From: Bacteroidaceae bacterium
GTDB taxonomy: Bacteria; Bacteroidota; Bacteroidia; Bacteroidales; Bacteroidaceae
Length of the DNA: 64,000 nt
Assembly: GCA_017483765.1 (NCBI GenBank)
Contig: JAFUVE010000087.1
Coordinates: 39,209-103,208, forward strand
Reading direction: 5' to 3'
In this document: in pieces, positions 3,676 to 21,428 of the stretch
Layout of the letters: each line of letters begins with the position of its first letter
Numbering within the stretch: the first letter of the stretch is position 1
Translations under genes and position numbers: made by a program
Notes under the pieces: model-generated
What the model was told of the DNA's origin: nothing
Seen by the model: only the letters and a program-made list of their open reading frames with translations
The model's database searches: none

Positions 3676-6600
3676 ATGAACAAAGAAATACAGAAACACA
3701 TCTCGTTACTCTCCTTCATTGTGATTTTATGGATGACGGCAGGGAATGCATTCGCTGTTGATATTGTCAAAGTACAGGACGAGGTGAAAGTGAGCACACT
3801 GCCGAAGAATGCATATGTGATCATGACAGGCAATACAACCTTGGTGGTGGATGAGAATCACACATTGAAAAGATTGGTAGGGGGGCATTCGCTTACAATC
3901 AAAGGCGACAAGGACAAAACGCTCAAGGTGACAAGTGAGGGAACACACGTATTTATGGATTACGCTAGGTCAGAAGGACAGTGCATTATGTGTGATAATC
4001 TTACGATTGATGCCAATGTGATAGCAAAATGCACAAGTCGGAATGAGAATGGGTGGTCGACTTATCGTGACATCGAGGTTAAAAAAGAGTGTGTGTTGCT
4101 GGGAGGAAAGCTGGAATCGGTTGGAGTCGGACAAGATGGAAACCTGACAGCCCATACGCTGAGGATAAAAGGTGGAGAGCTGGTTGGGAAGACTGGTGAG
4201 TGGGGGCATAACAGCGTCTCTTGCCCGTATTTTTATATGGAAGGCGGAAGTCTGGTTGCCCAGAACGCAAAAGATGCTGATGTGGCAGCGATGTCTGTCA
4301 TGGAGGCTTATATCAGTGGAGGAGATATAAAGCTGAAAGGCGGAGGTTTTTATTCTGCGAGGAAGCTACAAGTGGATGGCGGAACATTCACAGTTGAAGG
4401 TATACTGGGAATAAGGGTGAAGAATATGATAATGAACGGAGGAAAAGTGGATGTCAACTCATCGCGACCGATTTTCTGTGATGACATTCTTATCACGAGA
4501 GGGGGTATCATCCATGCTGTATCCAGTTCAAATAGCAGGTGCAATCAGGCCATCTATGCCAAAAGCTTGTTTATTGATGGTGGGACAATTTACGCCAAGG
4601 GTAAGGAATATGGTGTCGAGTTTGTAGAAGATTTGAGGGTTTCGGCTGGAACTTCAACTTTTGAGGGACCGCAGCAGGCTATCTACACAATAAAGGGCTT
4701 GATGGATGTCATCGACAACTTTATCATAGCTCCAAAGAACGGCCGCGTAAGTGACGACAACACCGTCGTGGACGAAAATGGTTATCCGGCGACTTACGTC
4801 CTGATGAGTGTTCCGCCTCTCTCCGGATCTGTCAACAAAAGTTCTTTGCCAGCATATCCCGGTACTCAGTTGTCGTATTCGCTGTCAGGAATGGTTTCGC
4901 AAATAGCGGAGGGACGTCTGTTTTTCTTCTGGCAGGAGAGTGCTGACGGTGAGACGGGATGGACAGACATTGAAGGGGCGGAAAGCAAGTTCTATACGGT
5001 GAAGACTTCCGATGTGGGTAAATACTTACGTGTGAGGATTTTGGCAAGTGGAACGATGGGGGTTGTTTACAGCTCGCCATGGAAAGCAGAGAAATGGAAA
5101 TGCACTGCCAGTGTGGTGCAACCTGAACTCCGGGTGTATGCAGGCCAGGTTAGAGTCACGAATCCACAAGCCGGTCAGGAATATTTGATTTACAGTTCAA
5201 AAAAGACTGTCTCCCAGCTGACAGAGCAAGAATGGGCGAAAAGTGTGACACTCAATTCTTCCATTCAGACGGAATTGAATCTTGGCGGAACTGCCAACAC
5301 AGTGAATTATGTGTACACACGGGTGAAGGCTACTGAGGGAACTCTTGCCGGCACCGATGTCGCCTCGGCAAGTATTTATCTGGGAACTGCCACTGCGGTG
5401 CAGGCCATAAGTCTGAACATACGTAAAGTCTTTGAGAATGCCAGCCGGCCATATTATCTTGAGGTGGAACGCGATGATATTGGTGCTTATTATCTCTTGT
5501 CAGGTTCTGTTTACAGGGTGGATGTCACGCCGACTCCCGCCAACGTCACATTTCAGGGTGTACGTGGCAGCAGCTGGCTGATTGGAGGGACTGCTCGTGT
5601 CACACAGTACGGTGGGTTCTATGCCGACCGCGCTTGCACGACGCTTATCTCTTCAGACGAATACTACAATACGGTGTTTTTCAAACCTCAGGACGGAACC
5701 GCCATCAACTACAAGGAGTTGCGTGTGGAATTCACGAGAGGCTACAATGACGTGGTGTCCGACGCATGCCTGGTGAATATCGGCACTTCCAAGGAGTATT
5801 ACAAGCTGGAGAACGTGCGTATGGAGAATGTGCTTGTTGTAGTGGGTGAGAAGGTGGAAGGTGTGAAGGCGATATTGCGGCCGGATAAGGCCAGCATGAC
5901 CTCCTTCACTGCCTCCCTGAAGGAAGGTGAAGGCACTGCGCCGGTTATCTCGTTCGATAAGGAGAACCAGTCCTTCAGCGTCGATGCTTCCAATGCATCA
6001 ATAGGTACATACATTTACAATGTGTTGGTGAATGGTTCTGTGTCTGCCACGCTGACTGTTAAGGTGACGGCACCGATGGTGCAGGAGGTGTATATGCTTC
6101 CTGAGGCCGTGACGCTCGAACGTGGCGAGAGTGTAAAGCCGGAACTGGTGATATTACCAGCCAACGCCGTGCCGGAGTCGACGATATGGATTTGGATGGG
6201 CACAGCCAATGTGGACAGGGCTGATGACGGAACGATTACCGTCAGGCCGGATTCTCCACGTGGCACGTACTCTGCGGTTGCGGTCGTCGACCACAATTTG
6301 AGCGCAAGCTGTCTGATTACGGTTCCGGGTAAGGATTCGGAGCTGTCGTTCAGTGAACATGTCGTCCATGCACAGAAAGACAAGACCTTCACTCAGCCGG
6401 CTTTGCTCAACCCGCACAGCCTGCCTGTGACTTATTCCAGCGAGGATGAGACTGTTGCAACAGTGGACGGCAAGACGGGGACTGTGAAAATCCTGGCGGA
6501 TGGTGCCACCCGCATCAAGGCCTCTTTCGCGGGCGATGATGAGTACGAGCCGGATGAAGACAGCTATGTGCTGATTGTTGGTGACGGACTTCGAGGCGAC

Positions 6601-8647: not shown

Positions 8648-9094
8648 TTATAGGTGTTTAGCTACGAACTCAGTTGGAGACAGAATTTCTATGGTTGATG
8701 TGTCAGCACCTCTGTAGTCGCGAAGATTGATGGTGACGAGTGTGTCGCACTTAGCCTGTATGGCGCATTGATATTGGAAACTGTCCTCAATGTCATCAAA
8801 CGCTGTGTCGTTGATGCCTGTGACAAGATGTTTATGGCTGATGCCAAGAGCTGTAACAATTGAGAGAATGGTGTTGAGTGTGTCTCGCAGGCGCTTGGTC
8901 TGTTCAGGACGGTGGATTCCTTGTCTTTTTAGCTCCATGCGGATGATATATGACAATGTGTAGACGCATCCCACAGATACGAATGCGCGTAAGTTTCCGT
9001 CTTCAATGGCACTGAGTATTTGACTAACAGCTTGGTACTCTCGCCGTTGCTCTATGTATTCAATAAAGATGTTGGTGTCCAGAAAGACCTTCAT
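8648..9094 (-). CDS. PIN-domain toxin (VapC-like ribonuclease)
   Basis: 148 aa. The PIN N-terminus MKVFLDTNIFIEYIE carries the first metal-binding Asp (Asp6), followed by acidic residues in the middle and the C-terminal block FDDIEDSFQYQCAIQAKCDT then LVTINLRDY, which supplies further acidic metal ligands. PIN toxins cleave RNA, often tRNA or rRNA. The partner antitoxin is encoded 12 bases upstream on the same strand and shares a promoter with it. Length and motif order fit an intact type II toxin. Confidence 0.85.
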   Translation of the reverse strand: MKVFLDTNIFIEYIEQRREYQAVSQILSAIEDGNLRAFVSVGCVYTLSYIIRMELKRQGIHRPEQTKRLRDTLNTILSIVTALGISHKHLVTGINDTAFDDIEDSFQYQCAIQAKCDTLVTINLRDYRGADTSTIEILSPTEFVAKHL

Positions 9095-10084: not shown

Positions 10085-11290
10085 ATGGAGTCGATAGAAC
10101 TACAGCCCCTTTTCAATAACTATCATCGTAAGATTGCTAAAGTAAACTTGAGATTCAAACGCTATCTGTACGGGCAAATCAATTGGAATGCCAGAATTAT
10201 CAGCATCAGGGGTGCCCGTGGAGTGGGGAAGACCACTATGCTTTTACAGTATATACTCGAAAATTATGAGAATCTCGACCAGACACTTTATGCATCATTG
10301 GATGACTTATGGTTTACCACTCATTCCTTGATAGACTTGGTTGACTGGGCCGACCAGCATGGTTTGCGACGTTTATTTCTTGACGAAGTGCACAGATATG
10401 AAAGATGGTCAGAAACACTGAAGAATATTTACGACAGCTATCCCGACATGAGTATCGTTTATACAAGCAGTTCTATGCTCATCATGGACAATGCCCGTGT
10501 GGACCTCTCCCGCCGCCAGACTTCTTATACATTATATGGCATGTCTTTCCGTGAGTTTCTGGCATATGAGGATGTCATCCATTTTCCAGTCATACCTCTT
10601 GACGACTTATTGAAGAACCATGTCCGTCATTCGATGCAAATAGTGCAGACAGTCAAGGTGACTCCCTTTTTTGAGGCTTATCTAGAGCATGGATACTACC
10701 CTTTCTACCGCGAGGCAGGAGAAGATTTTTCTGCACGCCTGAGAGAAATCGTGTCTCTTGTCATCGACAACGACTTGCCAGCTGTCGAGAGAATGACTTT
10801 TGATACTATCCAAAAAGTGAAGAAGTTGTTGATGATTATCAGTGAACGAGTTCCTTTCGAGCCCAAGATGTCAGAGTTGTGGAGCCAATTGTCAACCAAT
10901 AATGAATTGGGACTACGCATGCTTTATGCTTTGGACAAAGCGCAGATTATCACTTTACTCAGCTCAAAGGCAAAGAGCTACAGGTTTTTGTACAAGCCCG
11001 ACAAGATATTCCTTGGTAATCCCAACTTGATGCATGCACTGTGTCCTACAGTGAATAAGGGTAATGAACGTGAGACGCTGTTCTGTTGCCAGTTGATGGT
11101 GAATAATGATGTTAAGCATCCACTTAAAGGCGACTTTCTTGTTAATGACAAGTATCTATTTGAAGTTGGCGGCAGGAAAAAGTCTTTTGATCAGATTGCA
11201 GATGTCCCAGACAGCTTCCTTGCCGTGGATGATACAGAGGTGGGATATGGTAATCGTATACCTCTATGGCTGTTTGGTTTTACTTATTAA
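10085..11290 (+). CDS. AAA (AAA_14/DUF4143-type) ATPase
   Basis: 401 aa. Walker A is ISIRGARGVGKTT (residues 40-51) and Walker B is RRLFLDEVHRY (Asp100-Glu101). A sensor-like VYTSSSML follows, then FREFLAYE, typical of the single-gene ATPase family with a C-terminal DUF4143 domain. The C-terminal half (KGDFLVNDKYLFEVGGRKKS) resembles the nuclease-like fold at the end of that family. These proteins are widespread, highly variable accessory ATPases of unknown role. The gene is monocistronic with its own promoter, between the repeats and the RyR cassette, which converges on it. Confidence 0.8.
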   Translation: MESIELQPLFNNYHRKIAKVNLRFKRYLYGQINWNARIISIRGARGVGKTTMLLQYILENYENLDQTLYASLDDLWFTTHSLIDLVDWADQHGLRRLFLDEVHRYERWSETLKNIYDSYPDMSIVYTSSSMLIMDNARVDLSRRQTSYTLYGMSFREFLAYEDVIHFPVIPLDDLLKNHVRHSMQIVQTVKVTPFFEAYLEHGYYPFYREAGEDFSARLREIVSLVIDNDLPAVERMTFDTIQKVKKLLMIISERVPFEPKMSELWSQLSTNNELGLRMLYALDKAQIITLLSSKAKSYRFLYKPDKIFLGNPNLMHALCPTVNKGNERETLFCCQLMVNNDVKHPLKGDFLVNDKYLFEVGGRKKSFDQIADVPDSFLAVDDTEVGYGNRIPLWLFGFTY

Positions 11291-11493: not shown

Positions 11494-12414
11494 CTAACGG
11501 TCTGCGTTCCTGGTGATTTTGAATCCTTGGCTAATGATAAACTGTAATGTCTTTATACTGGTGATGCGGTCGAATTGTTTTTCCTCTTCTGGAAGTTCCT
11601 CGTATGGAACAAGGCATGGATGCTGCTTCAGGGTGTCGTTGCGCTCCTTTCCGTATGTCCAGCCTTGACGAATCCTTTCCTGTGCCCATTCCTCGTGTAC
11701 ATTCTCAGCCATTTTTTCAACTAATTCAGTCAATTCATCAGGCAAAGTGAAATCATCAGTGCTAGTACATTGGGGAACATATTCTATTGTGTCTGTAGCT
11801 TGAATTCCGTTTGCTTCTGATGCCGCCAGCACGTCGGCCAAAGACATCAGGAAACTAGCAATTCTTTTTTCAACAAAAACGCTGCATTCCCACCAAGTGC
11901 GCTCCATCAATGCATGGTAGAATTCTATTACATCACGCTTGTTGTTTCGGAGTATTTTTTCTTTTAAAGAAATAAGTTTTGCCTTCTCATACTTTTCTGC
12001 CAATTCACTTTCTGTGATTTTTTCTATATCTACAGTTTGCAGTAACTGATTAGCATAGTTTCTTAATTCATTGACAACATCAGCAAGTATGTTTGTGTAT
12101 TCCTCAGGTGATATTTGTTGTTTCTGCTTTGACAAATGTTCTTTTATTTCATCTGTCACTTGTTCCTTCAGCCCACTTTCTTCTAACAACTCGTCAGCGC
12201 TTCTTTGGAAATCACCACGGATTCTGTCTTTCAGTTCTAAGTTCAGCTTAGGGTCGATTATTTCCGTGTCGCGGCTGATGTCCTCGAAGTAGTCAATGTC
12301 GATGTCTTTCAGTTTTCTTCTCATCAGTTGACAAGGAGAGTCAATGTCCTCCATGACTTTTGCTATAATCATGTCGGACAGCTTTTTAGATATTTCCTTC
12401 ATTCGCGTTCCCAT
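11494..12414 (-). CDS. RyR-domain protein, last gene of the SIR2-TIR/STAND/RyR cassette
   Basis: 306 aa. The first ~220 residues are helical and charged with probable coiled coils (RDFQ-type repeats, KEHLSKQKQQISPEEY). The C-terminal ~65 residues match the ryanodine-receptor repeat (RyR) pattern: VHEEWAQERIRQGWTYGKER, then HPCLVPYEELPEEEKQFDR and a final helix. In animals RyR repeats form part of a calcium-release channel; prokaryotic RyR domains are seen next to NAD- or nucleotide-processing conflict proteins and are thought to sense ligands. The start overlaps the end of the preceding gene by 29 bases (17 if Met5 is used), indicating translational coupling. No enzymatic motif is visible, so a sensor or adaptor role is inferred. 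Confidence 0.8.
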   Translation of the reverse strand: MGTRMKEISKKLSDMIIAKVMEDIDSPCQLMRRKLKDIDIDYFEDISRDTEIIDPKLNLELKDRIRGDFQRSADELLEESGLKEQVTDEIKEHLSKQKQQISPEEYTNILADVVNELRNYANQLLQTVDIEKITESELAEKYEKAKLISLKEKILRNNKRDVIEFYHALMERTWWECSVFVEKRIASFLMSLADVLAASEANGIQATDTIEYVPQCTSTDDFTLPDELTELVEKMAENVHEEWAQERIRQGWTYGKERNDTLKQHPCLVPYEELPEEEKQFDRITSIKTLQFIISQGFKITRNADR

Positions 12415-14764
12415 CTTTTTCTTCTATTATTTGTTTGTAAATTTCAGGCAGATATTCCACAAGCTTCAGGTCGTAGGTGAAAGCGTCGCAGTCGATGATT
12501 TTCAGCACGTCATATGTGCAGATGTCCAAATGTGACATTTCGCTTTTCTTTTCTTCTTTCGTAGCGTCGAATTTTTCCCATTCGGCAAGCCAGTCTGTGA
12601 TCAATCGTTTGTCTGCATCAGTGGCTTGGTCTTCCTTAAGTCTGCCGATGGCTTCCTCTAATCCGGGAACACAGTTTCTTTCCCGTCCCATGAGGCTCTT
12701 TATTTCGCTTTGTTCAGAAGGTCTGAGAGGAGCAAATCCCATAAGCAACTGTTCCATGTTCCACCTTGAGTGTTCCACTTTAGCAAGCAGTTCTTTTGTG
12801 GCATCATCGAATGGTGTTCCGTTATATATTACGCTGCGTAGCTTTGTCCAAAGATGCATGAAGCTGTATTTGTCTGACCATTTTTTTGCCGTAAAACTCT
12901 TTCCTGTCTTTCTCTGAGGCATAGGCTTCTTTATATTCATTTTTTTTCTCAGTCCGCTCCTCATATCTTCAGCTATATCTATGTATTTTTTCGCTAATTC
13001 TCCACTGTATGTTCCGAGTTCATGAAGCAAGTTCACACAACACAGTTTGTTCAGCATCCCAAAAGGCTTGAGTTTGTCAAGCAGATGGAATCCCTTGGTG
13101 TCTATCGGTTCCTTGTTCAGGCTTTGGAACATGGCTTCACCGAATGGCTGAAACACCAGAATCTGCTGCACTGTTTTCTTTTCTTTCTCATACACTTCAT
13201 CGGGCAGGTAGAGAGCAGCGGCCAGCGAGGCATTGTCCTTCGGAAAACAAATGGCTATTGTCAGTCGTGATTGTTGTTTTTGAGCCTCATCCCTGATGAA
13301 CTGCTGGATTGCCGGCGTCTCCAGGTTTCCCTCGATGAACTGCCATTCTATATCCGCTACATCATCGCCTATGGAATATCCTTCTGTTTGTTTATATGGG
13401 GACTGGCTGTATGCGTCGGAGATTGGATGATGCCATCCCTCGTCGACGAACAATTCATTCTCCTCGTAGCATGCATTCATTTCCTTTGCTTTCAAGAAAC
13501 GCCAGGAAGCCACGGCAAACAACTCCTTGTAGTGACCTTGGAAGAAATTCATTTCTTGCTTTGCGTGTGAATCAATGAACGTGATGCGTGATTTTTTTCC
13601 TTTGGAGATGAAATTGGGGTAGTGTGCCAGATGTGCTGCCTGGACTGCCAGTGCAATGCCCATACGGCTCATCCCCACCACAATCAGATGCACGGTGTCC
13701 TCTTCGTTCATGGTTATTGGCTTGGTACCCTCAAGTGGCAAATAATGAATGTCCTGTTGGTCAGCCTGATTCCTACTTTGCCAGTTCTGCTTTTCAGTCA
13801 GATTCAGACACTCACAAACGAATACTCTTTGTGCCCACGTCTCGTAATAGTTGAATGGGGAGAAGTCCAGAGGAACAAAATTGTTGTCTTTATAACGTTT
13901 GCCAATTTTCTCGCTTATATCCGTAAACTGGAAAACAGAATACGTGCTCTGATAGTCGAAGAGTACATGACACGGAATCGAATTGCTCGTTCCTTCCAAC
14001 AAATCCGCCATCATCCGAACACATTCCATGTTCTTCACATCGTGGTGACTACCTTTCTGCTCGAAGTCCATTTCTTCTCCAATGACATAAATCTCCTTGC
14101 ACTGACCTTTGTCTATTTGAAGGCGTTTCAAGTCTGTTTGCGATGTGTGATCGCCGTAATAAATGACCACTTTTTCTTCCTCCTTTTCCAATAGTGACAC
14201 AAATTTCTTTCTCAGAGTCGGCACATCGCAAGTTGTCATAACCAAAACATGATTATATTTGTGTACTGCTTTGTTTTCTACTTTATCCTTGAGCAGGTCT
14301 CCAACCAATTTCGGAACCATGTCACTACCTCCCAATACAACACAATAGTTGCCAAGTGCTATAGACTTATAATGCAAATCACCTCTTTCCCATCTGCTTT
14401 TACGGTTTTGGATCCATGTGACAAATAAGGATACAAGAAGACCGTTGAGGAGGAAAGCACCAAGATAGGCAATCACAATTTTAGGAAATCTTTTTCCGAA
14501 AGAACCAAATCCTTCAAAATTTGAGTTAAGGTAAGTCTCATATGAGTCCGCAACGTCAGAAGATTCAAAAATAAATGGCTTTAAATAACTATCATTACAT
14601 TTCAAACATAATGTCAGTATAAATGGCAGAAAAAGAATACCCAATATAGTACTAAACACAAGCCGTTTAGGCGTTTTGTATAGTAATCGGTCAAACCTTA
14701 TAGGGAGACTTCGTAGCCAGAGGAGAATAGTCGTTGAAAAGTTTGAGTTTCTATTTTTTTTCAT
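12386..14764 (-). CDS. Two-TM, twin-RCK-like membrane protein ending in a RyR domain
   Basis: 792 aa. Two hydrophobic helices (about 34-54 and 94-118) flank a ~40-residue loop containing GFGSFG (85-90), the layout of a two-TM channel pore. A first Rossmann/RCK-type domain follows (YCVVLGGSDMVPKLVGDLL at ~140; HVLVMTT; VVIYYGDHTSQTDLKRLQI; KEIYVIGEE). A second begins at HLIVVGMSRMGIALAVQAA (~362). The last ~130 residues hold a RyR-like repeat (LLAKVEHSRWNMEQLLMGFA, then a long insert and FTYDLKLVEYLPEIY). RCK domains gate potassium channels in response to ligands. A ligand-gated membrane effector of the cassette is inferred; pore selectivity cannot be judged. It lies 73 bases after the nSTAND1 stop and overlaps the next gene. 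Confidence 0.78.
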   Translation of the reverse strand: MKKNRNSNFSTTILLWLRSLPIRFDRLLYKTPKRLVFSTILGILFLPFILTLCLKCNDSYLKPFIFESSDVADSYETYLNSNFEGFGSFGKRFPKIVIAYLGAFLLNGLLVSLFVTWIQNRKSRWERGDLHYKSIALGNYCVVLGGSDMVPKLVGDLLKDKVENKAVHKYNHVLVMTTCDVPTLRKKFVSLLEKEEEKVVIYYGDHTSQTDLKRLQIDKGQCKEIYVIGEEMDFEQKGSHHDVKNMECVRMMADLLEGTSNSIPCHVLFDYQSTYSVFQFTDISEKIGKRYKDNNFVPLDFSPFNYYETWAQRVFVCECLNLTEKQNWQSRNQADQQDIHYLPLEGTKPITMNEEDTVHLIVVGMSRMGIALAVQAAHLAHYPNFISKGKKSRITFIDSHAKQEMNFFQGHYKELFAVASWRFLKAKEMNACYEENELFVDEGWHHPISDAYSQSPYKQTEGYSIGDDVADIEWQFIEGNLETPAIQQFIRDEAQKQQSRLTIAICFPKDNASLAAALYLPDEVYEKEKKTVQQILVFQPFGEAMFQSLNKEPIDTKGFHLLDKLKPFGMLNKLCCVNLLHELGTYSGELAKKYIDIAEDMRSGLRKKMNIKKPMPQRKTGKSFTAKKWSDKYSFMHLWTKLRSVIYNGTPFDDATKELLAKVEHSRWNMEQLLMGFAPLRPSEQSEIKSLMGRERNCVPGLEEAIGRLKEDQATDADKRLITDWLAEWEKFDATKEEKKSEMSHLDICTYDVLKIIDCDAFTYDLKLVEYLPEIYKQIIEEKDGNANEGNI

Positions 14765-14837
14765 ATTGTTGACATTATGTGTTTGTCTTTTGAGATGATA
14801 TGGATTCTTGTGATTGAGAATAGCTGATACAATCTTG

Positions 14838-17800
14838 TTAGTCGCCAGCCAGTCTCATCTTGCTGACAGACTTCCATATCTTACCTTTACCCGCAAAGAT
14901 GAAGAGATAGGAGCAAATAAATGCAGAAATGACACCACCGACAGCTCCCAAAATCATGCCATAAGTGTTATATTTTGGCGAGTCTACATTATTCATGATG
15001 TACTCAAATATCATCCAATAGGGAGGCATGAAGCAAATAACAGCTATCGGCACTCCGATAATGGCAGCCCAAACAGACTTTCTTGTTGATCTCTCACCAT
15101 TATTAGCCAGCTGTCTTTTTTTGATGCGATAGAATATCCAGCCCAGTACAAACAGCCCTAATGCCACTAAAGGATAAAACCACCAATAGCGGTTGAATGA
15201 AAAAGCAATACCTGCCCACATATAGACACATGTATCCTTTACTCGTTTCCAAAGTGAATCTTCCTTGATGTCCAGGAATCCCTTGAAACTTTCATTTTTG
15301 ATATATTTTAATCTACTTCCATAAGGAACATAAAGCGTAATTTGCTCCTTTATATTGTCAGCATTTGCTGGGAAAGTCAAGCTGTCTATTTCTGCATTCG
15401 ACAAATGTATTTCTTTTAGATTTCTATTTGCTTCAACAATATATACACCTGCTGCTTCCTTTATTACTAATATGGAGTCCGTCTCTTGAGGTCTGACATA
15501 CTCATAGTAATAATCAAAAATCCTATTCCTAGTTGAATCTTTATAAATAATTGGGTTTTTAGAATGCGCTCTTAAATATTCATATCCAACCCCTTTTTCC
15601 CATTTCGAATTCTTAGAAATTGTTAATATGTAATTTTTGAAAACGTAGGCATTTGCAAGATAGTTCTTATTCGATATAACACCTGGCCCAAGATAAAAAT
15701 AGTCAGATGAGTCAGGAAAACTTTCCTTGTTATATCTATTGAGAATTAATGGTAAATCCTTTGTGTTTTTTTTGAAATATAAAATGGAGTCCTTGTCGTA
15801 TTTGAAATTTGAATGATTATCAGAGCGGAATTTTATGTTTTTTAAATTATAACAAAGAGTGAAAATCCGATAGCACATGCTATCGTTGTTGTCATATATT
15901 ATCGTGTCAGGCAATGTGATTTCTTCCAAATTCACACATCCGTTGAACAACTGATGGGAGGAGGTTAGGTTAAGTTGACGGGGAAATCTGACTTTCTTCA
16001 AGTTCCTACATTTTTCGAAAGCATTTTCTCCTAATACGACACTATCTGCTGTAAAACAGATTTCTTTCAGGTTTTCACAACCACTGAATGCATAATCACC
16101 AATTTCAACTACGCTGTCAAGATTAATCTCTGTGAGATTAATACAATTTTCAAAAGCATACGAAGGAATTTCCTTGATATTATTTAATGCTACAGATTTA
16201 ATATGTCTGTCATTTCTACAAATTGTGAATGTGTTTAATAATGAGTCATTTCTCTGATTAAATTCAATAGATTCGATTCCATAGGGATAATTAACATTAG
16301 TTTTTATTGCTTCTCCATAACTTCTTTTTAAACTATCCACGCCATATGGTAATCTTGTAACATTACTACTATTTATGAAAGTAGACGAATAAATAATAGA
16401 GTCAGTAGGCAAATATAAATGATTATTCTTCTTGTAATGCAGATATTGGACTGTATTTCCGTTTACCCACATTGTGTCCAATTGAAGTGTGGGATGATTT
16501 TGTCGTAAAAGTATAGAAAGTCTCTGTTTCCAATTACCCCTAACTGTATCGACATTGTTACTGATTGACACACGTTTAATCTCATCGTCATACAATCCAC
16601 CTATATCAGGGTTCTCCTTAGTGATTTTTTTTATATCTGAAGTCGGATTTGTTTTTGGCTCATATAATGCAAAACGTTCATTCTTTACAGTAGATGACCA
16701 TGCAAACTTGAATGTCAGGTATGTTAAAAAAGAAAGAATTCCGATAAGAAGCACAGACGTCAGGATTCTTGCCTTGTTGTCGTCCTTTCTTCTTTTCTGA
16801 CGGTAAGCCACTTTTGCGATTCTGTCGTGGGTAAGCTCAAAACGTTTCTCTTTTTCTGCTCCCGCTTCTCGAATGATTCTGCAATCAGAAGCTGTTAGTT
16901 TATTGACATTTGGAATTTCTACATTTGATGACTTGCGGTGTCCGTCTTCCGTAAGGTAATGTTGCTCTATGACTGCCCGTTGCTTTTTTGTAGTACGAGA
17001 CAGATAGAAATCAGTCAGAATCTTGTCTGTGCTTTCTTTGTCACTCGGCACATCCTCCTTTGTGATGACTGGATTTTCTTTGTTTTTCTGTTCTGCCCGT
17101 TCCCAAATCAAGTTGCATAACAGGGAAAGAATCAAGGTACTTATGCTTCCGTCCTTTTCCGTGGCGTTCAGTATGATTTTTTCTGCAATCTCTGTTTCTT
17201 CCCCTTTTTTCAGACATGAAATACCGGGTGTCAGGATGGCCTCTTTCGCATTATCGTTGCTCATAGCGCGCAGACGATAGCGGTTTTCTTTATATACAGG
17301 AAGAGAGAGCTCATCAATCACATCCTCTAACAGATACAAGTTGTCTTCGCGGATAGAAGCCACAAACCTGTAATTTGTCTCCGTTGACCAACCTTCAGGT
17401 ACTATCAAATTGTCGCTTAGTAAACAATTAATCTGTCTTAGCAACTGCTTAGCTTTCTCTTTATCTTCTAAGAAAATCTCTTCAAATTGGTCAAGGACGA
17501 TTACAGGATAAATTTTCTTCCATTCTGACCTTTCGTTTTTTATTTTGAATAGATGAGTGCTGAAATACTTCCATAAAACAGTCCGTCGCTCATAATCTGT
17601 GCCTTTATAATCATGTTCCTCATCGTTTTTTTCTTCTGAATGGTCCTCTAATGCTTCAATCCATAGCCCACTGTTCTCTAAGGCATCGATTATGGCCTCT
17701 GCATAATCTTTATTCTTGACATGATGAAAGAGCCTTATATATATAGGCTAATAGTAGTATTGCCGTATGATAGGAAACACCCCGGCATTCAGCAGAGAAG

Positions 17801-17978
17801 TTTTGCCGATTCCGGTTCTTCCATAGACAGTAACAAACAAGTTGTTGTCTATCAGTTTTGCCACTTCAAGAGACTCCTGATCACGTCCGCAAAACAAATA
17901 TTCTTCCTTGGCATTTAATGGATCTTCATAAGATGCCAATCCCCGCCAAGGACTTACTTCCTCATTCCTTTTTCTCAT
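14838..17978 (-). pseudogene. nSTAND1 NTPase with leucine-rich repeats and TM segments, interrupted by one in-frame TAG
   Basis: Read straight through, this is 1046 codons with a single internal stop, TAG, on the minus strand at 17750-17748. Before it (residues 1-76): the nSTAND1 entry SPWRGLASYEDPL, FCGRDQES and P-loop VYGRTGIGKTSLLNAG. Directly after it in the same frame: PIYIRLFHH, then Walker B VIVLDQFEEIF (~159-169), and a winged-helix end FELTHDRIAKVAYRQKRR. A TM helix (~405-427), BspA-type leucine-rich repeats (IPSYAFENCINLTEINL, IGDYAFSGCENLKEICF) and three C-terminal TM helices follow. The family usually has Leu before P-x-x-I-R-L, so TTG to TAG is the likely change. STAND proteins are signal-triggered switches; LRRs would sense and TMs would localise. 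It overlaps the SIR2-TIR gene by 17 bases. It is a recent nonsense allele, suppressed amber, or sequence error. Confidence 0.85.
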
Positions 17979-19344
17979 CTTTTTTTATTAATTGTATAAG
18001 TTTATCAATAGATTCTTTGGACGCATCATAAACAGTATGATTTTTTATGCAGTCAGGTGTCTTCTGATGATAGTCGCTTCTTATATTGTATCCACTGGTT
18101 ATTATTGGAATTACTTTCATGGGGTGTTCGGCTTGGAGATTGTCTTGGCTACTAACTTTTTGTTGTGCTGCATTCCATTCTGTTTTGATGTAGAATCTCC
18201 CTGTATTATTATTCTTCAAATCATAAGCCACTTGCGAAGTCAGCAGTGGTAAATAACAAGTGCATTGGTCTATAGCATTATAAATCCTCTGCTCGTAGGT
18301 TGCTCCTCCGTCAAGTTTTCTTTCGTCGAGCCAAACATCAAACTCCTTTTCTTTCAATTTGCTGCATATTGCAAGAGCTAAATGTATATCCTCATGGGCA
18401 TATGAGATGAAGATACCACCAACCGATCGTGATTGTATGATTTCATTATACTGCTCATCAAGCTTTTCAGTAGTTTTGCACATGAAATCTCTTGCGTCTT
18501 TATATCTTTCAATCCTATAGCGTGATAGAAAATTCGTAGCACTACTGTCGTATTCAACAGCAACTTGAAAAGAAGAACCACCTTGTTCTGGTATTTCTAG
18601 ATTTCCTCTTAGAATAAACCAAAAGAAACGGTATAACCAGTTGTCGAATTTGCAGCCTATGGTGACAATACGTTTTTGCCTGATGTGTTTTAGAAGTTCT
18701 ATAGATTGGTCTCTAAGAAAATAATTTCTGATGATTTTCATCTTATCCTCTTCTGTAAGGACAAATCCATTACCGCTATTGGCTTTGCCAAATAGATAAT
18801 ATAGCGTGGGGGCGCTTTCATCATATTCATTTAGTTTTTGCACTTTGGAATCTATATCTTTTTTCTTTTTGTCTTCGTCATAGAAATCAAGTACATGCAA
18901 TTTATCACCCCACACTTTTCTCATTGCTATTTCTATATATGGGTCTATGGTAGTAGTAAGAACTAAAGGAAAGCATCTTGTCTTGAGTAATTTAAATAAT
19001 GATGGTTCAAACTCGTCATTAAAGTTTTCCTCAAAATTCCATTCCTCCTTAACAACTTTACTAACTTCAGAATGCAAGTCGCTATTTGTTATTTGTGTGA
19101 AATCCTCGATATTTTGAAGATGATTCCCTTTTTCTTTATAATGATCTATAGTTGCATGCAGCAAAAGATTACTGCAATTTCCGTTAGCCTCTCTTATACT
19201 CTGATCGGAGCTTTCAAGGTTTAATATTATTTCTGGTCCTACTACGAGTACGTATTTATTAAAAACGCACGATTTAACGAATTTGTCAAAAATGAAGTCT
19301 TCGGCTATATTGTCGCTATTAGGTTTTGTTGTTTTTCTTCCCAT
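17962..19344 (-). CDS. SIR2-like/TIR fusion protein, first gene of the cassette
   Basis: 460 aa. Residues ~25-245 resemble a divergent SIR2-like domain: YVLVVGPEIIL (31-41), CFPLVLTTTIDPYIE (124-138), TLYYLFGKAN (180-189) and IVTIGCKFDNWLYRFFW (226-242). The usual TxNYD and HG motifs are replaced by TTIDP and LFG, so sirtuin-type NADase activity is doubtful. Residues ~308-420 are a TIR domain: GGIFISYAHED (309-319), FDVWLDERKLDGGATYEQR and FYIKTEWNAAQQ, where Glu389 sits at the usual catalytic-glutamate position. TIR and SIR2 domains in antiphage proteins bind or cleave NAD to make signals or deplete the pool. The nSTAND1 start lies 17 bases inside its 3' end, so the genes are translationally coupled. 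No clear promoter of the TTTG type is seen upstream. Confidence 0.82.
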   Translation of the reverse strand: MGRKTTKPNSDNIAEDFIFDKFVKSCVFNKYVLVVGPEIILNLESSDQSIREANGNCSNLLLHATIDHYKEKGNHLQNIEDFTQITNSDLHSEVSKVVKEEWNFEENFNDEFEPSLFKLLKTRCFPLVLTTTIDPYIEIAMRKVWGDKLHVLDFYDEDKKKKDIDSKVQKLNEYDESAPTLYYLFGKANSGNGFVLTEEDKMKIIRNYFLRDQSIELLKHIRQKRIVTIGCKFDNWLYRFFWFILRGNLEIPEQGGSSFQVAVEYDSSATNFLSRYRIERYKDARDFMCKTTEKLDEQYNEIIQSRSVGGIFISYAHEDIHLALAICSKLKEKEFDVWLDERKLDGGATYEQRIYNAIDQCTCYLPLLTSQVAYDLKNNNTGRFYIKTEWNAAQQKVSSQDNLQAEHPMKVIPIITSGYNIRSDYHQKTPDCIKNHTVYDASKESIDKLIQLIKKDEKKE

Positions 19345-19490: not shown

Positions 19491-21428
19491 CTATTCTGTT
19501 CCGGCTATGATGTTGATGATGGCCACGATGTCGCTGATGTCGGTGCTGCCGTCCTCGTTCACGTCACAAAAATAGAAACTGTCGGTTCCGGCAATGAAAT
19601 TGATGACAGCTACGATGTCGCTGATATCCACTTTGCCGTCAAGGTTTACGTCGCCCTTTTTGAAATCACCATCATCCACGATTGTGATTTTCTTCAAAAA
19701 AGATTCTGAGTAAAAGTAACTATTATATTTCCAATGATCATAGTACATAACTGTTGCGACATAATTTCCCTTAGGCAATCCTTTCAGCGAGAGTTCATAA
19801 TCTATAGTAACAGATTTGTTCTTTTCAAATGTACGCAAATCAAATTCGCTGATTCTAATGATTTTGTTAAGGTTCTCATCGCAAATCACTATGGCACTAT
19901 AAACATCATCAGTGGCTCCAGTGTTGGAGAATTTTGCATGGAACGTAAGCTTGTCATTATATGTTAGATGTTCCAAGTCGGTGTTGTCGCAAACCACTTC
20001 ATTCGTCGTGATATATGGGGTAGGGGAAGGAGTTGCCGTGATTTCGCACTGAGCATAGACGTTGCTTCCATCTGTAGCCATGCAAGTGATAACTGCCGTT
20101 CCTTCTTGGTCAATATACAAATACCCATTTTGAGTAATCCATGCAACGTTGCTATTCGTAGATGTCCATTTGACATCTTGATTAGTTGCGTTTACAGGTA
20201 AAATGGCCAGTTTAAATTCATGTTCGGTTCCTACTGGTGCAGTTATGGTGTATGTGTCGAGAAAAATGTCGGTTACCAGTATGGCAGTCTCTTCCTCAAT
20301 GGTGAGGTTACAGGTGGCAAAGATACCGCTTCCGTCCGATGCTCTGCAAGTGATGGTAGCAGTCCCGGCTGCATTAGCGGTGACAAGTCCGTTGCTGACC
20401 GTTGCCACAGACGAGTTCGATGTGCTCCAGTTGACATTCCTGTTTGTGGCATTGGATGGATACACAGATGCGGTTAGTTGTTTGGTGTCACCCACTTTCA
20501 TCTTCCAGCTGCTCTCATTCAGCGAGATGCTGGTCACCTTTACTTCTGTGCCTTTCACCTGCACGTTGCAAGTGGCGTATTCTCCGCTTCCGTCGGTGGC
20601 ACGGCAGGTGATGGTGGCCGTTCCCTCAGAAATAGCGGACACATAGCCATTGCTCACCGTGGCCACCGAGCTTTTTGACGAAGACCAGCTGACGCTACGG
20701 TTGGTGGCGTTGATTGGATAGACAGTTGCAGTCAGCTGACGGCCGCTGCCTACATCAAGTGTCAGGCTGGTGTAGTCGAGTGAGATGCTTGAGACATACA
20801 CGACCGGGTTGGTCACTCTGACATAGCACGTGGCAGAGCATCCGCTTCCGTCGGTCGCCTTGCAGGTTATGGTGGCTGTGCCTGATGACTTGGCATAGAC
20901 ATATCCGTTGCTCACACTTGCTATGTTGCTGTTGGATGATGTCCAACTGACCGTGCGGTTTGTCGCGTTGCTGGGATATACGGAAGCAGTGAGTTGTTGC
21001 CCTTCTCCCACGTCAAGGCTGATGTCGCTGTCGCTGAGATAAACTCCTGTCACATAAACCGTTTTCGACTTGACGGTGATGGTATAGTAAAAATCCATTG
21101 TGCGGTAGAATCCGTCGATGTAGTAGCTGCAATAGTAATACACCCTGCCAGATGTCGTGGCGCGGTTTCCCCTTATTGTGCAGGATGTCTTGGACGAGCT
21201 GGTTACGGAAACGTCCGAGTCGGCGCTGTACCAACGGTAGTTGATACCGGTAGCCCTTGCCAGTGTGCTCCAATAGCCTGAACTTATGGAGATGGTGGTA
21301 GACTCTCCCTCATATACAGTAGCTTCACCGTCCTTAGCGGATGCAAAAGAAAGCTGACAGACTGACGACAAGACAGTCACTAATATCATAATTATTAGGT
21401 ATGTATGTTTGCATTGTGATATATTCAT
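19491..21428 (-). CDS. Exported Big2-repeat protein with paired dockerin-like tail
   Basis: 645 aa. A signal peptide (to about SFASA) is followed by an Ig-like domain with paired cysteines, then four bacterial Ig-like (Big2) repeats of ~80 aa. Each has the pattern LDVGxxxQLTASVYPSNATN, SVSWSSSxSSVATVSNGYV and GTATITCxATDGSG. A CARDB-like domain (LEHLTYNDKLTFHAKFSNTG) precedes the dockerin pair, GDVNLDGKVDISDIVAVINF and DVNEDGSTDISDIVAIINII. The first three Big2 repeats are close to each other, indicating recent internal duplication; the fourth has diverged. Surface adhesion or a scaffold is likely; no catalytic site is seen. It lies 146 bases upstream of the SIR2-TIR gene in coordinates but is unlikely to belong to that cassette. 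Confidence 0.85.
   Translation of the reverse strand: MNISQCKHTYLIIMILVTVLSSVCQLSFASAKDGEATVYEGESTTISISSGYWSTLARATGINYRWYSADSDVSVTSSSKTSCTIRGNRATTSGRVYYYCSYYIDGFYRTMDFYYTITVKSKTVYVTGVYLSDSDISLDVGEGQQLTASVYPSNATNRTVSWTSSNSNIASVSNGYVYAKSSGTATITCKATDGSGCSATCYVRVTNPVVYVSSISLDYTSLTLDVGSGRQLTATVYPINATNRSVSWSSSKSSVATVSNGYVSAISEGTATITCRATDGSGEYATCNVQVKGTEVKVTSISLNESSWKMKVGDTKQLTASVYPSNATNRNVNWSTSNSSVATVSNGLVTANAAGTATITCRASDGSGIFATCNLTIEEETAILVTDIFLDTYTITAPVGTEHEFKLAILPVNATNQDVKWTSTNSNVAWITQNGYLYIDQEGTAVITCMATDGSNVYAQCEITATPSPTPYITTNEVVCDNTDLEHLTYNDKLTFHAKFSNTGATDDVYSAIVICDENLNKIIRISEFDLRTFEKNKSVTIDYELSLKGLPKGNYVATVMYYDHWKYNSYFYSESFLKKITIVDDGDFKKGDVNLDGKVDISDIVAVINFIAGTDSFYFCDVNEDGSTDISDIVAIINIIAGTE

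Follow-up and report, generated by a model that had tools for sequence, protein, structure and literature searches.

What would bring a TIR enzyme, a STAND protein and two proteins with RyR domains together in a Bacteroidales genome? The question is raised by four minus-strand genes that follow one another from position 19344 to position 11494 of a 64,000-nucleotide stretch of a Bacteroidaceae genome (hereafter the window; contig JAFUVE010000087.1 of assembly GCA_017483765.1), where open reading frame (ORF) calls and Pfam place a SIR2-TIR gene, a STAND gene with leucine-rich repeats (LRR), a gene for an RCK-RyR protein and a gene for a separate RyR protein. A first-pass annotation, made from the sequence alone, had proposed an antiphage signalling system in which an NAD-derived product of the TIR domain gates the RCK-RyR protein. 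We show here that both RyR proteins appear to keep the residues by which a phage RyR protein holds isomers of cyclic ADP-ribose (cADPR), which would fit the idea of an NAD-derived signal, and that the linkage of the cassette genes in other genomes exceeds chance. On this evidence we lean towards the view that the four genes form a defence cassette in which TIR produces a nucleotide signal and the effector is a membrane protein gated through RyR.

Results

All features of the cassette given below lie on the minus strand. The separate RyR protein (306 aa, 11494..12414) consists of an N-terminal part of about 205 residues, for which no family match was found, and a RyR domain (11509..11781) recognized by PF02026 at E 1.8e-31 (108.7 bits against a gathering score of 27.4), in agreement with the first-pass annotation. 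By phmmer it matches PDB 3nrt (2.8e-29) and animal RyRs, and relatives of its N-terminal part that have no Pfam RyR match occur at three of the loci described below (L061, L090 and L105). The phage RyR protein RyDEP has been reported in a preprint to bind and cleave 2'/3'cADPR by means of H75, W78, H100 and D117 (PMC13232231). The window protein carries His240, Trp243, His265 and Asp282 at the identical spacing of +3, +25 and +42; the equivalence is drawn from this spacing and from the alignment of the RyR family, which holds no RyDEP sequence. Across 23 separate RyR proteins, the first His, the Trp and the Asp are kept in 23/23 and the second His in 22/23. The C-terminal tail of the RCK-RyR protein (12455..12793), placed by family and profile-profile alignments, offers the corresponding residues His665, Trp668, His745 and Asp765, and among 46 such tails, that of locus L164 having been aligned by force, they are found in 46, 45, 46 and 45 sequences, respectively. 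Both types of RyR domain keep the His/Trp/His/Asp set and would plausibly bind a ligand of the cADPR type.

The tail itself may be a divergent RyR domain. It gave no match to PF02026 in the window protein, and the same Pfam family was found in 2 of 20 family tails (best 1.2e-6). Profile-profile comparison of the tail family with the RyR family gave an E value of 8.7e-5 and a probability of 60%, with the pocket residues in register, while the tail profile searched against PDB returned chance matches only, kinases first, and no RyR.

The genes of the cassette recur near each other in other Bacteroidales. A survey of 393 genomes of the order turned up relatives of the RCK-RyR protein in 24 and PF02026 in 37, the latter vs none of 14 control genomes; such gene sets occur in gut and rumen bacteria. 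A pattern-based scan of contigs gave 77 loci (denoted by L numbers), 75 of which bear names that we take to be those of Bacteroidales, the other two being a Bacteroidia bacterium and an uncultured bacterium. An RCK gene was called in 76 of them. Flanks of up to 10 kb a side were scanned, incomplete at 35 of the 77 loci, and for the counts on 76 loci TIR genes were called by similarity to nine TIR seeds rather than by Pfam. A separate RyR gene lies in the flanks at 53/76 loci (within 2.5 kb at 49/76), a TIR gene at 29/76, a TIR or DUF4062-like gene at 32/76, and at least one of the three partners at 66/76. DUF4062 is described as a family of TIR-like NADases (PMC13174449); it was recognized by Pfam near RCK-RyR at L070 (1479-5549, with an AAA protein) and L148 (5266-9927), and by similarity only at L098 (6380-8782) and L121 (5353-7839). 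At the 42 of 77 loci with full or nearly full flanks, 35 of 138 Pfam TIR_2 matches fall near RCK-RyR vs 1.28 expected by area, an enrichment of about 27-fold, and at 20 of the 42 loci a TIR_2 was confirmed no more than about 10 kb away. A further 21 TIR_2 matches in the coordinate range, unconfirmed inside the locus, were left out of this count, although for one or more of these (G407:C21) the contig is probably the correct one. The first survey, of 22 genomes (the 24 minus G201 and G260, which were weak or without RyR), used rounded centres as RCK positions and placed 13 of 46 TIR_2 matches within 12 kb of RCK-RyR vs 0.46 expected, in 10 of the 22 genomes; the two sets have some genomes in common.

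The first gene encodes a protein of 460 aa (17962..19344; Pfam and family profile A9) with a SIR2-like domain (18610..18966; SIR2_2, PF13289, 3.1e-5, right at its cut-off of 24.5 bits) and a TIR domain (18094..18414; TIR_2, PF13676, 4.5e-14), as the first-pass annotation had it. Profile A9, built from seven SIR2-TIR proteins, was run over the 393 genomes and found 16 full-length places, defined as matches over about 350 or more of its 453 positions, in 15 genomes. These places together with the copies near RCK-RyR, the window included, make up 21 proteins, some of them near-identical. In 19 of the 21 a STAND gene lies within 450 bases on the same strand, and SIR2-TIR with STAND is a conserved gene pair. 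The TIR glutamate singled out by the first-pass annotation, Glu389 (codon 18178..18180), is the catalytic one and is invariant (21/21), and profile A9 matches the NAD(+) hydrolase AbTIR (PDB 8g83, 2.3e-12). The single sequence gave no match in PDB, and its SIR2 part alone gave chance matches only. The same annotation had assigned NAD processing to both domains, which would hold for the TIR part with its kept glutamate and probably does not for the SIR2-like part: at the catalytic His site, placed by alignment to KomC (PDB 9xvc, an entry named for its H146N change), the window protein has Phe185, and across the family 18 proteins carry Phe and 3 carry Leu, with not one His among the 21, so that a catalytic SIR2 was rejected. 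The neighbouring site, which we take to be a catalytic Asn in SIR2 enzymes, holds Asn in 4/21. Because the catalytic His is missing throughout, a scaffolding or ligand-binding role is probable for the SIR2-like part rather than a second NAD activity, which leaves the TIR domain as the enzyme. PADLOC returned TIR-type matches for the SIR2-TIR proteins. With a threshold of E 1e-5 it returned none for the STAND, RCK-RyR and RyR proteins, for which the weaker matches look like chance.

Hydropathy marks residues 35-53 and 96-114 of the RCK-RyR protein (792 aa, 12386..14764; family profile A5) as hydrophobic segments, which with the loop between them form the predicted pore region (14423..14662). 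These two segments had been described in the first-pass annotation together with two RCK-like domains and a RyR repeat, parts that fared less evenly. The first RCK domain (14000..14311) falls below the Pfam cut-off in the window protein (PF22614, 0.0013) and just above it in the relative at L091; a second Rossmann-like motif was recognized by eye in the alignment of relatives; and for the RyR repeat there is the profile-profile support given above instead of a Pfam match. Profile A5, built from 46 sequences of the family, matches in PDB the gating-ring channels DMI1 (1.8e-5) and CASTOR (1.6e-4), with a further, weak match to a Slo-type channel (0.04), while the single window sequence matched nothing there. 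What had been called a membrane protein can be described more narrowly as a member of a channel-like family and a predicted ion channel. In 31 of the 46 family members the loop between the hydrophobic segments carries the motif DPG, often DPGNQ, which presumably resembles the filter of CASTOR-type channels. At L089 (10321-12210) lies the most similar relative, with 46% identity over its best segment, and there the coding sequence is broken between two reading frames.

The STAND gene spans 17978 to 14838, with nSTAND1 and LRR_5 matches. Provided that it starts at 17978, the four same-strand genes are separated by overlaps of 17 and 29 bases and a gap of 73 bases, just as had been annotated. What the first-pass annotation overlooked is an in-frame TAG at 17748..17750, which cuts the frame just after the Walker A motif into an N-terminal piece of 76 aa (17751..17978; nSTAND1 4.5e-12) and a remainder of 969 codons (14838..17747; nSTAND1 3.1e-7) with the rest of the NTPase, BspA-type LRR and hydrophobic segments. 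The annotated domains are present by Pfam, namely the nSTAND1 NTPase with its Walker A and the LRR (best LRR_5 stretch 15894..16202; PF13306 4.8e-21), though not in an intact gene. None of seven aligned STAND relatives has a stop at this position. The C-terminal part differs between loci: the window protein has LRR, that of L092 combines WD40 with LRR, and L115 has WG repeats. This variation is as expected if the protein acts as a sensor. The STAND gene of L155 (1353-4982) likewise contains a TAG in frame.

The G+C content of the cassette is 38.5% vs 48.0% for the window, which suggests a horizontal gain. No exact match to the Bacteroides-type promoter pattern was found just upstream of 19344. 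The promoter-like motif TTTG-N18-22-TANNTTTG occurs 7 times in the window vs 1.23 expected, none of these copies just upstream of the cassette; sigma-70 sites are below shuffled sequences (18 vs 23.9) and terminators slightly above them (8 vs 5.3). Just upstream of the cassette on the same strand lies a gene for a Big_2-domain protein with a dockerin domain (19491-21428), and on the downstream side are a PIN-domain gene, possibly a toxin (8648-9094), and an AAA_14 ATPase gene (10085-11290).

RyR genes were also seen in other settings. Arrays with a gene of about 190 aa (family F2) occur at L061, L062, L080-L082, L090, L096, L099, L103, L106, L108, L112, L113, L127, L130 and L131, mostly with a long RyR protein (RyR plus a zinc ribbon in L061), and some of them add an M48 peptidase, a zinc-ribbon protein or TIR genes; the F2 gene of L061 gave no Pfam match. 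Such arrays are perhaps a RyR-controlled regulatory unit. A divergent C-terminal RyR domain is present in proteins of 720-760 aa at L063 (8367-10547), L093 (14840-17011) and L096 (15315-17591). Genes of family F24, with a MutS domain V in L144, stand beside RyR genes at L137, L144, L145, L195 and L196, an adjacency that may be plain synteny of related genomes.

Discussion

The pathway that we favour would run as follows. The nSTAND1-LRR protein would sense infection, assemble and activate SIR2-TIR, its partner in the gene pair, with the SIR2-like part in a non-catalytic role. The TIR domain, with its catalytic glutamate kept, would turn NAD into a signal of the ADP-ribose type. The RyR tail would bind this signal and shift the RCK gating ring, and the pore would open or close and so halt the infected cell. 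The separate RyR protein would bind the same signal and tune it, either as the co-sensor of the first-pass annotation or, alternatively, as a buffer or slow hydrolase that may restrain signalling.

Several observations weigh against this pathway. The match of the RCK-RyR family to DMI1 and CASTOR runs mainly through the first RCK domain only (best single-domain E 0.004), and the homology of the tail to RyR is weak. The DPG motif of the loop, seen in most relatives, is absent from the window protein, so that ion conduction by this particular protein is doubtful. The STAND frame is interrupted. Two of eight further phage RyR homologs showed no binding in a shift assay and none cleaved the signals, according to the preprint (PMC13232231). 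Part of the TIR_2 enrichment could reflect the clustering of such genes in defence islands, the baseline being one of area only. Finally, at 10 of the 76 RCK-RyR loci the flanks scanned contain none of the partners RyR, TIR and DUF4062, and 10 of the 16 full-length SIR2-TIR places lack a RyR within 10 kb (at least four of these on contigs shorter than 14 kb), so each module can occur without the other.

The interrupted sensor gene raises the question of whether the window copy still works, and we give an even chance to the explanation that it is a decaying relic in which the sensor is dead and the rest is drifting. This concerns the present copy only and is compatible with a signalling cassette in the family. 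A recoded TAG was rejected as an account of the stop: TAG closes 3 of the 29 window ORFs of at least 200 aa (called mechanically, one of the 29 being open-ended), and is therefore in use as a stop. Apart from the TAG in the window gene, decay is supported by the likewise interrupted STAND gene at L155 and the split channel gene at L089; it is countered by the other three window genes, which are open and keep their key residues. The stop may also be a base error, because the source is a metagenome-assembled genome (105 contigs, 69.9% complete) in which a single base may be wrong. As the sensor gene reads, its interruption means that the window copy is probably inactive or only partly active.

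A different role for RyR would be that of an off-switch, the separate protein and perhaps also the tail sponging or cleaving the TIR signal as a guard against self-harm, with killing brought about by the loss of NAD to the TIR enzyme. Ring nucleases act as such off-switches in type III CRISPR. RyR genes, whose presence in viruses also speaks for the favoured pathway, occur on 20 viral contigs and in 118 phage records, where identity with the RyR domain of the window reaches 65% and stays below 60%, respectively, and the viral contigs carry them without RCK-RyR: of 46 candidate RCK-RyR stretches there none was confirmed, and 72,556 plasmid records gave no match to it. Near the 20 viral RyR genes a script found one weak match to the RCK profile (L219, 9e-5) and no TIR, and by eye a TIR-like ORF stands beside the RyR gene in L223. 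In further support, the separate RyR proteins keep both residues of the RyDEP catalytic dyad, and phage RyR proteins are reported to sponge or cleave the signal; on the other hand, none of the eight further homologs, six of which bound the signals, is reported to cleave them (PMC13232231). The fusion of RyR to a channel-like protein in dozens of genomes is also left unexplained, and we consider this account unlikely. Among the viral contigs, L211 has an isochorismatase-fold gene beside its RyR gene (5004-5854; Pfam 7.6e-15) that looks nicotinamidase-like, and L215 has by eye a similar isochorismatase-like ORF beside its own (4875-6292), neighbours that echo the NAD-salvage setting of RyDEP.

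The four genes might instead be two systems, SIR2-TIR and STAND being a self-contained, NAD-depleting abortive-infection pair and RCK-RyR with RyR a second, unrelated system that often happens to lie next to it in defence islands. The ten SIR2-TIR places without RyR speak for it, as do the RCK-RyR genes found with other TIRs or without any. Among the 16 SIR2-TIR places, which were located without reference to RyR, 6 lie no more than 10 kb from a gene for RyR or RCK-RyR. The closest likeness to the window order is at L088, from a sheep rumen Bacteroidaceae, where SIR2-TIR, STAND, RCK-RyR, TIR and RyR stand in a row, one TIR gene more than in the window and the RyR gene being short; at L092, L105, L115, L155, L081, L196 and L201 the genes are arranged differently or one of them is missing. 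Among the loci examined, the window alone has exactly the four genes in this order. Members of the two pairs recur near each other in other Bacteroidales genomes, so that the lack of joint conservation which would have refuted the first-pass annotation was not found. The SIR2-TIR/STAND and RCK-RyR/RyR pairs are reshuffled modules, and RCK-RyR also stands near other TIR or DUF4062 genes. The close same-strand packing of the genes in the window and at L088, where they overlap or nearly abut, the roughly 27-fold enrichment of TIR_2 near RCK-RyR (though islands could account for part of it) and the fit of the RyR residues to a TIR product make two unconnected systems distinctly unlikely in our view. 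Very unlikely, to our mind, is a role of the RyR and RCK genes in ion or NAD homeostasis or stress signalling instead of phage defence, which could draw on the F2 gene at 12/76 loci and the long RyR protein at 12/76 (not all the same loci), a pair that looks regulatory by eye only, with no search support, and against which stand the TIR genes in many such arrays, the RyR genes on phages and the patchy presence in 24/393 genomes.

A signalling cassette of this kind would resemble Thoeris in having a TIR enzyme with a kept catalytic Glu beside a putative reader of an NAD-derived signal. It differs in its putative effector, where a RyR-bearing RCK protein takes the place of SIR2-SLOG, macro-TM or caspase, and in its TIR, which shares a polypeptide with a SIR2-like domain lacking the catalytic His and has a STAND protein as partner; by Pfam and PADLOC none of the known Thoeris effectors (ThsA SIR2-SLOG, macro-TM, caspase) was found in the four window genes, and the matches to ThsB (TIR) were weak. 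PDB 3nrt, a putative ryanodine receptor presumably from B. thetaiotaomicron, is likewise a separate bacterial RyR domain (E 2.8e-29), present as a construct of 103 residues, whereas the window protein adds its N-terminal part of about 205 aa. For the channel GsuK of Geobacter we know of no RyR domain or TIR partner. GsuK is described as a dual-RCK K+ channel activated by ADP and NAD+ (PMC3510474), and dual RCK domains and adenine-nucleotide ligands are what the predicted channel would share with it. With CASTOR, POLLUX and DMI1 (PMC6697748) the predicted channel would have in common a pore built from two membrane segments ahead of the RCK domains, in keeping with the gating-ring profile match, while the RCK-RyR protein has two hydrophobic segments and not four, ends in RyR and is bacterial. 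With Avs/AVAST the cassette would share a STAND NTPase as infection sensor (PMC12931631), whereas its enzyme is a separate SIR2-TIR gene and its NTPase is of the nSTAND1 type. RyDEP and the phage RyR sponges belong to the same PF02026 family and have His/Trp/His/Asp at equal spacing (PMC13232231); the genes described here are bacterial, fused to a channel-like protein or to an N-terminal part of no known family, and lie near TIR genes rather than in counter-defence. Among the literature matches listed, no title or abstract gives an account of a TIR-RyR-RCK system.

Tentatively, and with rather less than even confidence, we propose that Bacteroidales possess an immune pathway in which a cADPR-type signal made by TIR gates a RyR-domain ion channel. 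It would be a prokaryotic counterpart, and possibly a source of parts, of the link between cADPR and the ryanodine receptor of animals, with the phage RyR sponges and hydrolases as stolen antagonists. This link has long been debated in animals. The binding of TIR-made cADPR isomers by RyR has recently been reported, in phage proteins (PMC13232231, preprint). Here the same set of residues is found in bacteria, in genes that neighbour those for TIR enzymes and in the terminal domain of a predicted channel. If the proposal is true, it would give the phage RyR proteins a likely origin, would add a membrane effector to TIR signalling, and would offer a small system in which to ask whether cADPR acts directly on RyR domains.

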